Below, piece after piece: positions 54,762 to 60,528 of a stretch of 64,000 nt of DNA. A model generated the notes under the pieces. The model was not told where the DNA came from and searched no databases. It worked only from the letters and a program-made list of their open reading frames with translations. The translations under genes and the position numbers were made by a program. This DNA is from Aliiglaciecola sp. CAU 1673 (GTDB taxonomy: Bacteria; Pseudomonadota; Gammaproteobacteria; Enterobacterales; Alteromonadaceae): positions 124,001 through 188,000 of the forward strand of contig NZ_JARHUG010000007.1 of NCBI RefSeq assembly GCF_029223185.1. The letters run 5' to 3'. Numbering within the stretch: the stretch's first letter is position 1; each line of letters begins with the position of its first letter.

Positions 54762-55889
<1,128 letters not shown>

Positions 55890-55897
55890 GGAGCGCC

Positions 55898-56782
55898 ATG
55901 AATCATCTTACCGAAAAGCAAACTGCCCGCGCTTTTGGCGGCTGGCAACAACGTTTTGAACATGCTTCAGAATGTCTGAATTGCACTATGCAATTCTCCG
56001 TGTATGTTCCGCCGCAAATCTATGCCAATCAGCCACTGCCTGTGTTGTATTGGTTATCGGGATTGACCTGCACCGATGAAAACTTTTCCACCAAATCCGG
56101 CGCCCAGCGTATTGCAGCCGAATTGGGGATGATGTTGGTGATCCCCGATACCAGCCCCAGGGGCGACGGTGTGCCCGATGCGCCAGATGGCGCCTATGAC
56201 TTAGGTCTGGGTGCAGGGTTTTACCTTAATGCCAAGCAATCGCCCTGGCAGCGCCATTACCGCATGTATGACTATATTCTGGAAGAACTGCCCGAGGTGC
56301 TGGCATCCCGCTTTGAGCTGGGTAAGGCGGCTATCGCCGGTCACTCCATGGGCGGTCACGGTGCTTTGGTGCTGGCCATGCGTAATCCGGATAAATACAG
56401 CTCTGTCTCGGCCTTTGCACCTATCGTCAATCCCAGTCAATGCCCCTGGGGCCAGAAAGCCTTCACGGCCTATTTGGGCGAAGACCGCGCCAGCTGGAAA
56501 TACTATGATGCCTGCCTGCTGGCCAGAGAAATGGGGGAAAACCTGAACATTCCCATGCTAATCGATCAGGGCCTGTCGGATAATTTTCTGGAGCCCCAAC
56601 AGCTCACCCGACCGCTGGAAGAAATCTGTCGCTATCAGGGCAACCCGGCGCGCTTTCGCTACCATGGTGACTATGACCATAGCTATTACTTTATCGCCAG
56701 CTTTATCGAAGACCATCTGCAATTCCATGCGCGTCATCTGGGATTAGACACCGCCAGCAACGGTTTTCTGGCAAAAGGCTGA
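55898..56782 (+). CDS. fghA: S-formylglutathione hydrolase
   Basis: Esterase that releases formate and glutathione, the step after frmA. The 294-residue protein has the nucleophile elbow GHSMGGHG, the motif [13 protein letters not shown] and the C-terminal catalytic His region ([11 protein letters not shown]). It is about 10 residues longer at the ends than enterobacterial FghA. Operon partner of frmA. Confidence 0.96.
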
Positions 56783-56834: not shown

Positions 56835-57245
56835 ATGCTTCAGGCCTACCTTATCCGCGATGATATTGGCCCCGATTGCATCCGCGGCATGCTATATGCC
56901 GAAGGAGAGCTTTTCCATGTGCTGGAAAGGCCCTGGTTAAATAACAAACCCAACCAAAGTTGTATCTGCGCCGGACGCTATGAAGTAGATTTTTTAGCAC
57001 GCTCCGGCAGCGGTAAATACCGCGACGTTTACTGGTTACAAGATGTGCCGGGACGTAGCGGTATTCTTATCCACAAAGGCAATATCGTGGCCCATTCCAC
57101 GGGCTGTCTTATCCTCGGCAAACGCCGAGGTAAATTGGGAGGCCAGCGAGCTGTGCTGAATTCCCATACTGCCATGCAGGAATTTGTGGAACTAATGAAC
57201 AAGCAGGCATTTAGCCTGCAAATTCTAGGGAGCCAATCATGTTAG
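56835..57245 (+). CDS. DUF5675 protein (phage-associated family)
   Basis: 136 residues, no signal peptide, basic. The segment GRYEVDFLARSGSGKYRDVYWLQDVPGR and SGILIHKGNIVAHSTGCLILGK match the DUF5675 pattern, found mainly in phage and mobile elements near lysis genes. His and Ser/Thr residues in the HKGN...HSTGC segment look like a possible active site (inference). It overlaps the next gene by 7 bases and has a weak upstream ribosome site. Confidence 0.7.
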   Translation: MLQAYLIRDDIGPDCIRGMLYAEGELFHVLERPWLNNKPNQSCICAGRYEVDFLARSGSGKYRDVYWLQDVPGRSGILIHKGNIVAHSTGCLILGKRRGKLGGQRAVLNSHTAMQEFVELMNKQAFSLQILGSQSC

Positions 57246-57772
57246 AAGCCATCGTCGGGATCTTTTCCTCCTCAGGCCTTGGCGCCATTGTCGGTTTGTT
57301 TGGTAGCTGGCTGACCAAGCGCGAGGAGCGGCGCAATATGGCGCTGAAATTGGAGTTTGAGGTAAAAATGGCGGAGATCCGCAAAGCCGAAGCCGAGATG
57401 GAGTTCAATCACGAGTTGGCGCTGGCCGATAAGCAGATTGAGCGGGCTCAGGTGGAAGGGGAAATCCAGCGGGATGTGGCGGAAATGGCCGCCTTCAAAG
57501 AGAGCCTCAAAGAGCAGCAGCAGATGTATGAGATTAAATTTGTGGACGCCGTTCGTGGTTTGATGCGCCCGCTAATCACCGTCTATCTGCTGATTATCGC
57601 CACCTATGTGACCCTTAAAATCGGCGGTTTTGTGGGAGGAATGGAAGGCGCCATGCCAGAGCAAGAGATGGTCATCATGTACAAAGACACCATCGCCCAG
57701 GTGATGTTTTTGGTCACCACAGCCGTTACCTGGTGGTTTGGCTCACGGCCTTCCAGTCAGCGTAAAGGTTAA
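57239..57772 (+). CDS. Holin-like three-helix membrane protein
   Basis: 177 residues: TM1 about 4-22, a long charged coiled coil (about 28-100, REERRNMALKLEFEVKMAEI and on), TM2 about 110-130 and TM3 about 150-168 ending WWFGSRPS. This layout matches the three-TM holin family seen in gene-transfer agents and phages. AGGGAG lies 8 bases before the ATG, which overlaps the DUF5675 stop, so the two are coupled. It converges on the CDGSH-GltS gene with a 4-base overlap. Confidence 0.72.
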   Translation: MLEAIVGIFSSSGLGAIVGLFGSWLTKREERRNMALKLEFEVKMAEIRKAEAEMEFNHELALADKQIERAQVEGEIQRDVAEMAAFKESLKEQQQMYEIKFVDAVRGLMRPLITVYLLIIATYVTLKIGGFVGGMEGAMPEQEMVIMYKDTIAQVMFLVTTAVTWWFGSRPSSQRKG

Positions 57773-59322
57773 TTTCCTGGTGGCAACAAACCGCTGTATG
57801 TAATGCCGCTGAGTCTGGCCATGGGTTCACTCCATGTAGCCAAATCCTGCAAATTGAATTGATGCAGATGGTGGTGCCCACAGGCCCGGGCCATCACCTG
57901 CATCAATTCGCTACTGGCCTGTAGAAAATTAGCCAGTTGCCGGGCGCCTTTTTCCACATCCAATCGTTTACGCAACTTGGGATCCTGAGTGGCCACACCG
58001 GAAGGACAATTATTGGTGTTGCAGATACGCGCTGCCACACAGCCAATTGATTGTATAGCGCTATTGGCCAGGGCCACTCCATCCGCGCCAAGGGCCAGAG
58101 CTTTCACGAAATCCATCGGCAGGCGCAGACCACCGGTAATAATCAAGGTTACATCCCGTCCCACGCCTTGGGCATCCAGGAATCGCCTGGCCCGGGCCAA
58201 GGCGGGAATGGTGGGCACGCTGATATGATCACGAAACATGGTCGGGGCCGCACCGGTGCCGCCCCCACGACCATCGAGAATAATGTAGTCGGCGCCTGCT
58301 TCCAGGGCGAAGGCCATATCCTTTTCAATATGATTGGCACTGAGCTTAAAGCCGATGGGAATACCGCCGCTGATGCGCCGGACATCGTCGGCAAAGCGTC
58401 GGAAATCCTGGACATTTTTAAGGTCGCTAAAAGTAGGCGGTGACACCGCCGGCTTGCCTTCTTCAATGCCCCTGACTTTGGCGATTTTACCTATGTTCTT
58501 GTTGCCAGGCAGATGACCTCCGGTACCGGTCTTTGCGCCCTGTCCCCCCTTGAAATGAAAAGCTTGCACTTTTTCCAGTAACGCTTGCCGATATCCGAAT
58601 TTAGCGCTGGCCAGCTCATACATATATCGGGAATTCTCGGCCTGTTCCTCATCCAACATGCCCCCTTCACCTGAACAAATACCGGTGCCGGCAAGCTCAG
58701 CGCCTTTGGCCAGGGCAATCTTGGCCTCTTCAGATAAGGCGCCAAAACTCATATCCGACACAAATAACGGCATGGACAAACGCAGAGGTTTGTTTGCTTT
58801 TGGCCCGATAACAAACTCGGTACCGACCTTGTCTTCTTCCATCAGTGGTCGCGTGGCCAGCTGTGCCACCATCAGCTGAATATCGTCCCATTGCGGCAGC
58901 TGATTTCGAGGCACGCCCATGGCGGTCATCGGGCCGTGATGCCCGATTTTGGACAGCCCCTCTTTGGCCAGTTGGTGGATCAGGGCCACAGTGGGCTCTT
59001 CCTCGGTTGGCTCAGCCACGGGGATTCTGTCTTTCTCGACTTGTCCCGGCCCTTCTTTGCCTACCTGCTCGGCCTTGAACTGTTTGTGCGTGCCGTCACA
59101 GAAAGGCGCATTGCCGGTATGCTTGCAAACACAAAGCCAGGCATCACCGTCCTTTTCAGCGGTAAAGGCCTTGGGTGACAGTCCTGTGCCCTTATGCGAG
59201 CCGTCACAGAAAGGTTGCTCCTTGGAACGCCCGCAAACGCAGAAATAGTATTCCTTGTCTTTTTTAAGCTGTACCTGTGCTGGCTTGTTATCGGCGACGA
59301 TTGGTTTACTGGTCATGGACAT
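57769..59322 (-). CDS. CDGSH iron-sulfur / glutamate synthase-like fusion protein
   Basis: 517 residues. N-terminal: two CDGSH zinc-finger-type [2Fe-2S] motifs (about 28-45, CVCGRSKEQPFCDGSH, and about 63-80, CVCKHTGNAPFCDGTH). C-terminal (about 130-510): the FMN-binding half of glutamate synthase (SDMSFGALSEEAKIALAKGAE, GGQGAKTGTGGHLPG, YIILDGRGGGTGAAP, ALGADGVALANSAIQSIGC). There is no glutaminase domain. Probably a flavin oxidoreductase using the CDGSH clusters as electron relay; substrate unknown. Confidence 0.9.
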   Translation of the reverse strand: MSMTSKPIVADNKPAQVQLKKDKEYYFCVCGRSKEQPFCDGSHKGTGLSPKAFTAEKDGDAWLCVCKHTGNAPFCDGTHKQFKAEQVGKEGPGQVEKDRIPVAEPTEEEPTVALIHQLAKEGLSKIGHHGPMTAMGVPRNQLPQWDDIQLMVAQLATRPLMEEDKVGTEFVIGPKANKPLRLSMPLFVSDMSFGALSEEAKIALAKGAELAGTGICSGEGGMLDEEQAENSRYMYELASAKFGYRQALLEKVQAFHFKGGQGAKTGTGGHLPGNKNIGKIAKVRGIEEGKPAVSPPTFSDLKNVQDFRRFADDVRRISGGIPIGFKLSANHIEKDMAFALEAGADYIILDGRGGGTGAAPTMFRDHISVPTIPALARARRFLDAQGVGRDVTLIITGGLRLPMDFVKALALGADGVALANSAIQSIGCVAARICNTNNCPSGVATQDPKLRKRLDVEKGARQLANFLQASSELMQVMARACGHHHLHQFNLQDLATWSEPMARLSGITYSGLLPPGN

Positions 59323-59441: not shown

Positions 59442-60068
59442 ATGCAGTCGGGTTACCCCATCCCCAGTGGTCGCTGCCAATTTGAGTTAGAGATAAAGCG
59501 CAGCAAATTCTTGTGTATTGCCGAGCATGCGCCGACTCCCGCCAGTGCCCAGGCGCTGATTCAGTCATTAAGAGCCGCCCACCCCGGTGCTAACCATGTA
59601 TGCTGGGCTTATATTGCCGGCGCCCCAAACGGCACCGATATGTCCATGAGCGATGATGGCGAGCCCAGCGGCACGGCCGGGCGCCCCATGCTGAATCTGT
59701 TGCAGCACAGCGGTCTGGGAGAAATCGTGGTGGCGGTGGTGCGCTACTTTGGCGGCACCAAGCTTGGCACAGGCGGATTACAGCGTGCCTATTCCGATGC
59801 CGTGGCGGGTGTGCTGGAGATAATGGAAACAACCCTAAAGGTACATCGCGCTCCGCTTATATTAAGCTTTGACTATGCTCTGGAAGCCAAAGTACGCCAT
59901 GTACTTAGTCAGTTTGATGTGACCGATGAACACTTTGAATATGGTCAGCAAGTTACCCTGTCTTTACGTTTAGAGGAAAAGACTCTGGAAGATTGTGCTC
60001 AACGTCTGACCGATCACTGTGCGGGTGCCATCAGTATCCAAGGCTTATCAGACAAGGCCAGCACCTAA
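59442..60068 (+). CDS. yigZ: YigZ/IMPACT family protein
   Basis: 208 residues with the UPF0029 N-terminal fold (KRSKFLCIAEHAPT; HVCWAYIAG; DDGEPSGTAGRPML; VVRYFGGTKLGTGGLQRAYSD) and a C-terminal DUF1949 ferredoxin-like domain. Function in bacteria is unclear; some members are implicated in translation. It is followed by a GFA-family gene 16 bases later. Confidence 0.96.
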   Translation: MQSGYPIPSGRCQFELEIKRSKFLCIAEHAPTPASAQALIQSLRAAHPGANHVCWAYIAGAPNGTDMSMSDDGEPSGTAGRPMLNLLQHSGLGEIVVAVVRYFGGTKLGTGGLQRAYSDAVAGVLEIMETTLKVHRAPLILSFDYALEAKVRHVLSQFDVTDEHFEYGQQVTLSLRLEEKTLEDCAQRLTDHCAGAISIQGLSDKAST

Positions 60069-60084
60069 AAAAAGGACAACAACC

Positions 60085-60528
60085 ATGGAAAAGCCCTATC
60101 AGGGACAGTGTCTGTGCAGAGCCGTTACCTTTAGCCTGCAGCCTCCTCTTCCCCATCTATACCAATGCCATTGCTCCATGTGTCGCAAGCTAAGCGGTTC
60201 ATCGTCCGATACCGCCATGTTCATCGATAAAGCACAATTTGCCTGGATTAAGGGCCAGCATAACATTGGCTCGTATCAAACTGATTCGGGCTATCGCAGT
60301 GATTTTTGCCAATGCTGTGGCAGTACCCTGCCCCATGCGATGCAAAACGGCCGTCAAATGTGGGTACCCGCCGGATTACTGCCTGGCAATATCCCCAGCC
60401 AGGTAAAGGCTCATCTGTTTGTGGATTCAAAAGCCCACTGGGATCCGTTGCTTAATGAACAAGAAAGCCTCTGCCACCCAACGATGCCACCGATGGAGGA
60501 GTTGGATAAATTGCTGCAAGGTGAATAG
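60085..60528 (+). CDS. GFA-family (glutathione-dependent formaldehyde-activating type) protein
   Basis: 147 residues with the zinc/sulfur ligand pattern GQCLCRAVTF, CHCSMCRKLSG and FCQCCGSTL of the Gfa fold. ATG at 60085 has AAGGA 9 bases upstream. Members are often annotated with formaldehyde detoxification, but most are of unknown substrate, so the link to frmA-fghA here is weak. Confidence 0.88.
   Translation: MEKPYQGQCLCRAVTFSLQPPLPHLYQCHCSMCRKLSGSSSDTAMFIDKAQFAWIKGQHNIGSYQTDSGYRSDFCQCCGSTLPHAMQNGRQMWVPAGLLPGNIPSQVKAHLFVDSKAHWDPLLNEQESLCHPTMPPMEELDKLLQGE

Follow-up and report, generated by a model that had tools for sequence, protein, structure and literature searches.

Two overlapping genes in the window, the whole 64,000-nucleotide stretch of Aliiglaciecola sp. 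CAU 1673 DNA that was analyzed, are likely to be a two-gene phage lysis cassette (endolysin and holin) captured without the remaining phage in one species of the genus. The presumed site of capture, downstream of frmA-fghA, is a variable one. The first gene, ORF A, would encode a soluble enzyme that cuts peptidoglycan, most likely as a cysteine peptidase that attacks peptide stems or crosslinks via His80 and Cys91, and the second, ORF B, would encode a three-transmembrane (TM) holin-type protein that lets the enzyme cross the inner membrane. On the best reading, the cassette lacks spanins and consists of endolysin and holin only. The chromosomal copy is an orphan that is probably ordinary in origin, and the case for DUF5675, the family of ORF A, as an overlooked endolysin family is the more interesting result.

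The gene pair with a 7-base overlap that a preliminary description of this DNA had claimed is present on the + strand. ORF A (56835..57245) encodes a DUF5675 protein of 136 aa, recognized by PF18925, phrog_1501 and an AlphaFold (AF2) model. ORF B (57239..57772) encodes a three-TM protein of 177 aa with a central coiled coil, recognized by phrog_6637, its topology and the neighbors of its relatives. The overlap covers 57239..57245 on the + strand. Two open frames, and the family-invariant residues retained in ORF A, speak against mere decay, and the pair may still be able to lyse a cell. Inside the pair, no further + strand ORF of at least 60 aa was found that could serve as a spanin gene. The start of ORF A lies 52 nt behind the end of fghA, which is codirectional with the pair. 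A pattern scan for sigma-70-like promoters gave none for the pair, and the number of terminator-like sites (7) was roughly at shuffle level (5.3, sd 2.0). A relic, or a capture without dedicated regulation, is the most likely present role in the host. Foreign composition was rejected, as GC content (0.501 and 0.532 vs. a mean of 0.510, sd 0.025, over 66 ORFs) and codon use were unremarkable and host-like. A defense system was likewise rejected, as the pair had no PADLOC match.

ORF A matched DUF5675 (PF18925) with an E-value of 9.5e-25 and 87.1 bits against a curated cut-off of 26.7, in agreement with the identity first proposed for it, and matched phrog_1501 at E 3.8e-24. DUF5675 was its sole Pfam family at E 0.1, and YkuD (PF03734) gave no match. 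A signal peptide was not apparent by eye, so ORF A should depend on ORF B for its passage to the periplasm, following the classic holin-endolysin logic. Seven residues (E31, N37, S42, R74, H80, G90, and C91) were invariant in 83 of 83 aligned DUF5675 proteins, an alignment from which L177 and L164 were left out, and ORF A keeps all seven. The matching His was present in 81 and the matching Cys in 79 of 82 cellular DUF5675 ORFs. The codon of His80, the proposed catalytic residue, lies at 57072..57074 (+ strand), and that of Cys91, the proposed nucleophile in a Ser-Thr-Gly-Cys motif whose Gly-Cys is invariant, at 57105..57107 (+ strand).

For ORF A, AlphaFold predicts a beta-rich domain (mean pLDDT 96.1) in which a strand ends at His80 and Cys91 lies just before the next strand. 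The fold check proposed earlier thus returned a confident model and no fold assignment from solved structures: Foldseek gave no match to these at E ≤ 0.001, and the best match of the DUF5675 sequence profile to PDB chains was only E 1.2. A viral model library gave 12 matches to the ORF A model at E ≤ 0.001. One of these is named L,D-carboxypeptidase/transpeptidase (E 5.4e-8) and a weaker match is named endolysin (E 6.8e-3); both names are annotations, not assays. A published enzyme assay of DUF5675 was not found, and in the PMC literature searched the family appears only as a bare domain name, with no function, in phage gene lists (excerpts of PMC10671443 and PMC9229204).

The YkuD L,D-transpeptidases and the amidase DpaA share a His ... 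Ser/Thr-x-Gly-Cys site with DUF5675. Unlike this motif, neither a Pfam cross-match nor a PDB fold match connects DUF5675 with YkuD. The two motifs were superposed by hhalign with a probability of only 12.3%; a second set-up gave 4.6%, with a score (20.6) slightly above the best of 60 column-shuffled controls (19.2). An Arg following Gly-Cys-Ile/Val is missing in the displayed DUF5675 rows, whereas most YkuD rows have it, with 4 of 14 lacking it. DpaA, a hydrolase, lacks an arginine conserved in the transpeptidases (excerpt of PMC12729407), and in our reading this is the same arginine. The invariant His and Gly-Cys of DUF5675 resemble the YkuD active site in a way that is at most suggestive of homology, and the balance for and against kinship with the YkuD enzymes is about even. 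A cysteine peptidoglycan peptidase is the likeliest prediction for ORF A.

ORF B matched phrog_6637 at E 2e-14, with residues 14-170 aligned to positions 7-152 of 160, in a library that has no curated cut-off. It had no Pfam family above the cut-off and no NCBIfam match. Hydropathy peaks were found at residues 4-22, 112-130, and approximately 151-169, the third being weak (1.2-1.4). On the + strand, these correspond to TM1 (residues 4-22, 57248..57304), TM2 (residues 112-130, next to a conserved Arg110-Pro111, 57572..57628), and TM3 (residues ~151-168, 57689..57742), which ends with TWWFG before SR. The C-terminal end of the protein reads TWWFGSRPSSQRKG. Between TM1 and TM2, a charged, coiled-coil-like stretch at approximately residues 26-100 (57314..57538, + strand) was recognized from the sequence and the AF2 secondary structure. 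Helices in the AlphaFold model span residues 2-9, 12-69, 77-134, and 141-169 (mean pLDDT 80.7, pTM 0.57). Hydropathy and model therefore bear out the three-TM and coiled-coil layout of the holin-like protein initially described, with a weak TM3, but not its placement in the Pfam three-TM holin family: GTA_holin_3TM (PF11351) did not match ORF B at E 0.1 or 0.01. The same Pfam family matches 2 of 59 members of the ORF B family. In two loci (L199, 711-1956; L198, 1070-2016), an M15 peptidase adjoins an ORF B relative, and the ORF B-type protein of L199 matches GTA_holin_3TM (E 1.2e-7), a link between that family and phrog_6637-type proteins. ORF B would form the hole through which ORF A passes.

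The DUF5675 and ORF B families are a recurrent phage pair, beyond chance. Using tblastn against 50,697 phage records, ORF A was found in 122 and ORF B in 39, and 31 of the 39 ORF B records were among the ORF A matches listed (40 of 122), with the two matches lying within ~160 nt of each other. The stretches around the ORF B relatives of ZP6 and J2-1 held no DUF5675 gene. Viral loci were also gathered via DUF5675 alone (the best 80 of at least 573), the ORF B profile having been made before these loci were fetched. An ORF B relative was present in 58 of these best 80, on the same strand in 58 of 58, and in 45 of them it lay no more than 100 nt from DUF5675 (40 downstream, 5 upstream). After removal of redundancy, 41 of 69 viral loci from the same best 80 had an ORF B relative within 100 nt, in a set that excludes two viral loci with 2302-aa proteins. 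Among the best 80 of 163 cellular DUF5675 loci, 11 had an ORF B relative, which was directly downstream and overlapping in all 11. These cellular pairs are partly redundant (L249, L252, and L264 repeat G323, G312, and G125, and L242 repeats the viral L124), and several of their loci read by eye as phage, such as the Mu-like L260. No ORF B relative was found in the other 22 of the best 80 viral loci or in 69 of the best 80 cellular loci. A Persicobacter plasmid of 48.8 kb carries both families side by side.

Among the phages with the pair are SIO-2-like vibriophages and PT11-V19, an Alteromonas podophage that we read as N4-type from its very long RNA polymerase gene. The vibriophages SIO-2, J26, R21Y, and Virtus and the Alteromonas podophages PT11-V19 and R22Y carry both families in identical order, adjacent or overlapping. 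In these phages, the pair lies within a complete genome, after the tail genes, whereas the window pair stands alone on a chromosome. With the two families adjacent in so many phages, the phage-type lysis layout first claimed for the pair is upheld. Neither an endolysin nor a holin is named in the annotations of J26 and PT11-V19. The table of the Virtus paper lists ORF1 as pfam18925 and ORF2 as a TMhelix protein, and its main text, as excerpted, uses neither "endolysin" nor "holin". The association therefore offers a specific and easily tested candidate lysis pair for phages like J26, PT11-V19, and Virtus.

The closest relatives of both window genes lie on one phage contig, L112 (60% and 59% identity), and both trees group the two genes with viral sequences. 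In these trees, ORF B is the sister of L112 (96/91), and ORF A falls with L112 in one 21-row clade (86/89, which is not strong support); the ORF B relative L150 was left out of the alignments. The L112 pair is followed by genes that read by eye as terminase and podovirus portal. Since the identity to L112 is only ~60%, the donor itself is not among the sequences seen.

The pair might instead be the remnant of a decayed prophage that once lay at the site, a reading which we consider possible, if rather unlikely, and which differs from capture of a cassette only in the route of arrival. The grouping with phage sequences in both trees would suit it, as would the presence of both families in prophage-reading loci of three Alteromonas genomes (G312, G323, and G125; L064-L066). 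In these, as in the window, a DUF5675 gene overlaps a three-TM gene, but the site reads by eye as prophage with tail genes and a repressor, and identity to the window pair is only ~22-33%. Against a remnant, no att-like direct repeats flank the pair, and the sole tRNA gene of the window lies 36 kb upstream, with only 6 kb of the downstream side falling in the window. In addition, further phage genes or their debris would not fit at the site, with only 52 nt to fghA on one side and an overlapping gene on the other. A prophage bounded by att sites was rejected from the lack of flanking repeats and from 15 neighbors without phage families.

Pfam families of five neighbors were those of a sulfate permease, genes reading as frmA and fghA, a glutamate-synthase-like protein with CDGSH domains, and a YigZ-type (UPF0029) protein; the frmA and fghA reading rests on zinc alcohol dehydrogenase and esterase families. 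Ten further neighbors comprised one without a family and nine with ordinary families (ArsR regulator, FMN reductase, SBF transporter, acetyltransferase, porin, Usp, GFA, solute-binding protein, and HAD). The pair is thus isolated among metabolic and housekeeping genes, as had been stated, and the further statement that the 64-kb window holds no phage gene can be affirmed for structural and integrase families in these 15 scanned neighbors. The frmA- and fghA-like genes (54771-56782) and the GFA-type protein, a glutathione-dependent formaldehyde-activating protein (60019-60528), flank the junction.

The glutamate-synthase-like gene (57769..59322, − strand; PF01645 and PF09360) runs toward the pair and shares 4 nt with the end of ORF B. 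Its protein has two N-terminal CDGSH stretches. Its best matches in all four congeners reached 34-37% over ~300 residues, and orthologues at 72-75% were found in five other genomes of the family and order. This gene, too, is lineage-specific, and it does not belong to the module.

The order porin, usp, sulP, frmA, fghA is kept in all four congeners, with some genes inserted, and neither ORF A nor ORF B was found in any of the four. A yigZ gene is present in five of five genomes, and its distance to fghA varies, reaching ~7 kb in G003. With the pair missing, the glutamate-synthase-like gene only distantly matched, and this distance varying, the site is a variable junction. Across 345 genomes of the family, four matched both families, three of them in what reads as prophage. 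ORF B profile matches in G135 and G198 (frames of 821 and 855 aa) and in G339 (internal stops), at E 3.3e-4 to 7.3e-4, were treated as chance, and a DUF5675 match in G318 (22.2 bits) lay below the curated cut-off and was missed by our own profile. The conservation check suggested at the outset hence argues against conserved domestication, and a domesticated system kept across the family was rejected from the absence in congeners and the sparse distribution in the family.

Domestication within this one lineage is a separate matter. The pair could be a holin and hydrolase module, of the type X secretion or programmed lysis kind, serving the signal-controlled release of proteins, vesicles, or cell content and possibly read through from frmA-fghA, although we regard this as improbable. 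Two open genes, seven family-invariant residues in ORF A, host-like composition, and a position 52 nt behind a codirectional fghA with no promoter of its own by pattern scan would all agree with such a role. There are precedents in TcdE/TcdL (PMC6200909), the DLP12 module (PMC7918800), and type 10 secretion (PMC12729407), each cited here from excerpts, in which a phage-type holin and a peptidoglycan hydrolase are kept by the host. The window pair differs from these systems in having no spanin, no evident secreted cargo gene adjoining it, and no conservation at genus level, and only one genome of the species was available. The captured-cassette reading leaves the chromosomal copy as an indication that a holin-endolysin pair can be carried without its phage, from which domestication into a release or cell-death system might start.

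The lysis reading of the two families rests on four lines of evidence, namely lysin exchange, gene position, the lack of another lysin, and domain fusion. First, ORF B relatives also adjoin other lysin genes: a GH24 Phage_lysozyme (PF00959, E 8.5e-43) in G008 (L069) and Peptidase_M15_3 in G059 and G162 (L198, E 2.3e-15; L199, E 9e-15), and DUF5675 was not found in these three stretches. Second, the DUF5675 gene of the P2/HP1-like phage PE001 is placed between the tail tube and tape measure genes, accompanied by genes for a three-TM-looking 173-aa protein and for a small one with a single apparent TM, and the record notes place HP1 genes nearby "in lys 3' region". In the Mu-like-reading prophage L063, DUF5675 is followed by a similar-looking 192-aa protein, a TraR-type zinc finger, and DUF2730. 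We take these two sites to be where HP1 and Mu-like phages have their lysis genes. The PE001 and L063 membrane proteins that accompany DUF5675 did not match the ORF B profile, which counts against the cassette reading.

Third, no other lysin was seen in PE001, either among 25 listed of 33 Pfam families (45 of 45 proteins scanned) or in 10 proteins searched singly, and none in J26 among nine Pfam families from 60 of its 120 proteins. Fourth, DUF5675 is fused behind an N-acetylmuramidase domain (PF11860) in two Bacteroidia MAGs (L273, E 2.4e-57; L279, E 2.3e-59), ahead of SH3_3 in L258, and behind SLT (PF01464, E 9.6e-13) in a 2302-aa tape-measure-like protein (L133, 1-6909) of a 221-kb viral contig. 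The last case suggests a virion-associated lysin. DUF5675 also occurs in a 2302-aa tape-measure-like protein in L142, as in L133, for which the domain families were checked. The associations with lysozyme, muramidase, and M15 peptidase make a membrane system unrelated to lysis, which had been raised as an option, unlikely. The four lines together suggest that DUF5675 is an overlooked peptidoglycan-hydrolase or endolysin family.

A different division of labor, with ORF A as a phage accessory protein (for example in wall crosslinking or remodeling, the work of true L,D-transpeptidases) and ORF B as an antiholin, spanin-like, or superinfection-exclusion protein, appears quite improbable. The motif of ORF A is YkuD-like and many YkuD enzymes are transpeptidases, lone DUF5675 genes occur on chromosomes (L059, L061, and L062), and in the P2-like-reading prophage of G023 (L068) an ORF B relative sits beside a LydA-type holin gene (PF16083) in a stretch with no DUF5675, so that this relative need not be the holin there. 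Set against this are the lysozyme and M15 genes beside ORF B relatives, the fusion of DUF5675 to a muramidase, and the proteins scanned in PE001 and J26, which included no other lysin. The YkuD Arg missing in the displayed DUF5675 rows, in our reading the one that the hydrolase DpaA lacks as well (PMC12729407, in excerpt), also speaks against this division.

Among the lone chromosomal genes, that of G100 (L059, 6499-8250) lies behind two small genes without a Pfam family in housekeeping surroundings, which by eye include a secG-like gene and a 631-aa gene before and a qmcA-like gene after, a non-lysis context. Two other chromosomal DUF5675 genes (L061, 7597-8211; L062, 7845-8342) have no ORF B relative in their stretches, and the protein of L062 starts with a signal-peptide-like stretch.

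The weakest alternative, a lysis module of a gene-transfer agent (GTA) with its structural cluster elsewhere in the genome, is highly improbable given that the host genome gave no Phage_portal (PF04860) match, in a search positive in 4 of 14 control genomes, and no convincing terminase match. For the latter, phrog_2, presumably the large terminase, gave two matches (26.5 and 27.2 bits; positive in 11 of 14 controls) that read by eye as RecD-like and PhoH-like proteins. From these searches, with one profile each, a GTA lysis cassette, and with it the link to a distant GTA entertained previously, is not supported. Rhodobacter capsulatus does provide a precedent, as its GTA cluster encodes no clear lytic enzyme and a putative lysozyme (rcc00555) and putative holin (rcc00556) lie outside it, with disruption of rcc00555 lowering gene transfer (PMC3423380, in excerpt). 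GTA_holin_3TM proteins resemble ORF B in having three TMs and a long middle part, and 2 of 59 relatives of ORF B match this family, but ORF B itself does not match and its nearest relatives are in a phage contig.

Should DUF5675 be an endolysin, a Pfam family found across phages, prophages, and several bacterial phyla would gain a function, and the lysin repertoire would gain a new catalytic type. A more far-reaching version is a long shot: DUF5675 would be an unrecognized class of DpaA-like cysteine peptidases, acting as endolysin of lytic, P2-like, and Mu-like phages, as virion-associated lysin, and as RHS-like C-terminal part, and the host-captured enzyme and holin would form a minimal lysis or release device run with the formaldehyde genes. 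In three bacterial MAGs, DUF5675 follows a short RHS match that is below the curated cut-off, in proteins of ~300 aa (L289, 8575-9489; L291, 4671-5663; L294, 2727-3614), and it could be the cell-wall-active C-terminal part of these RHS proteins.
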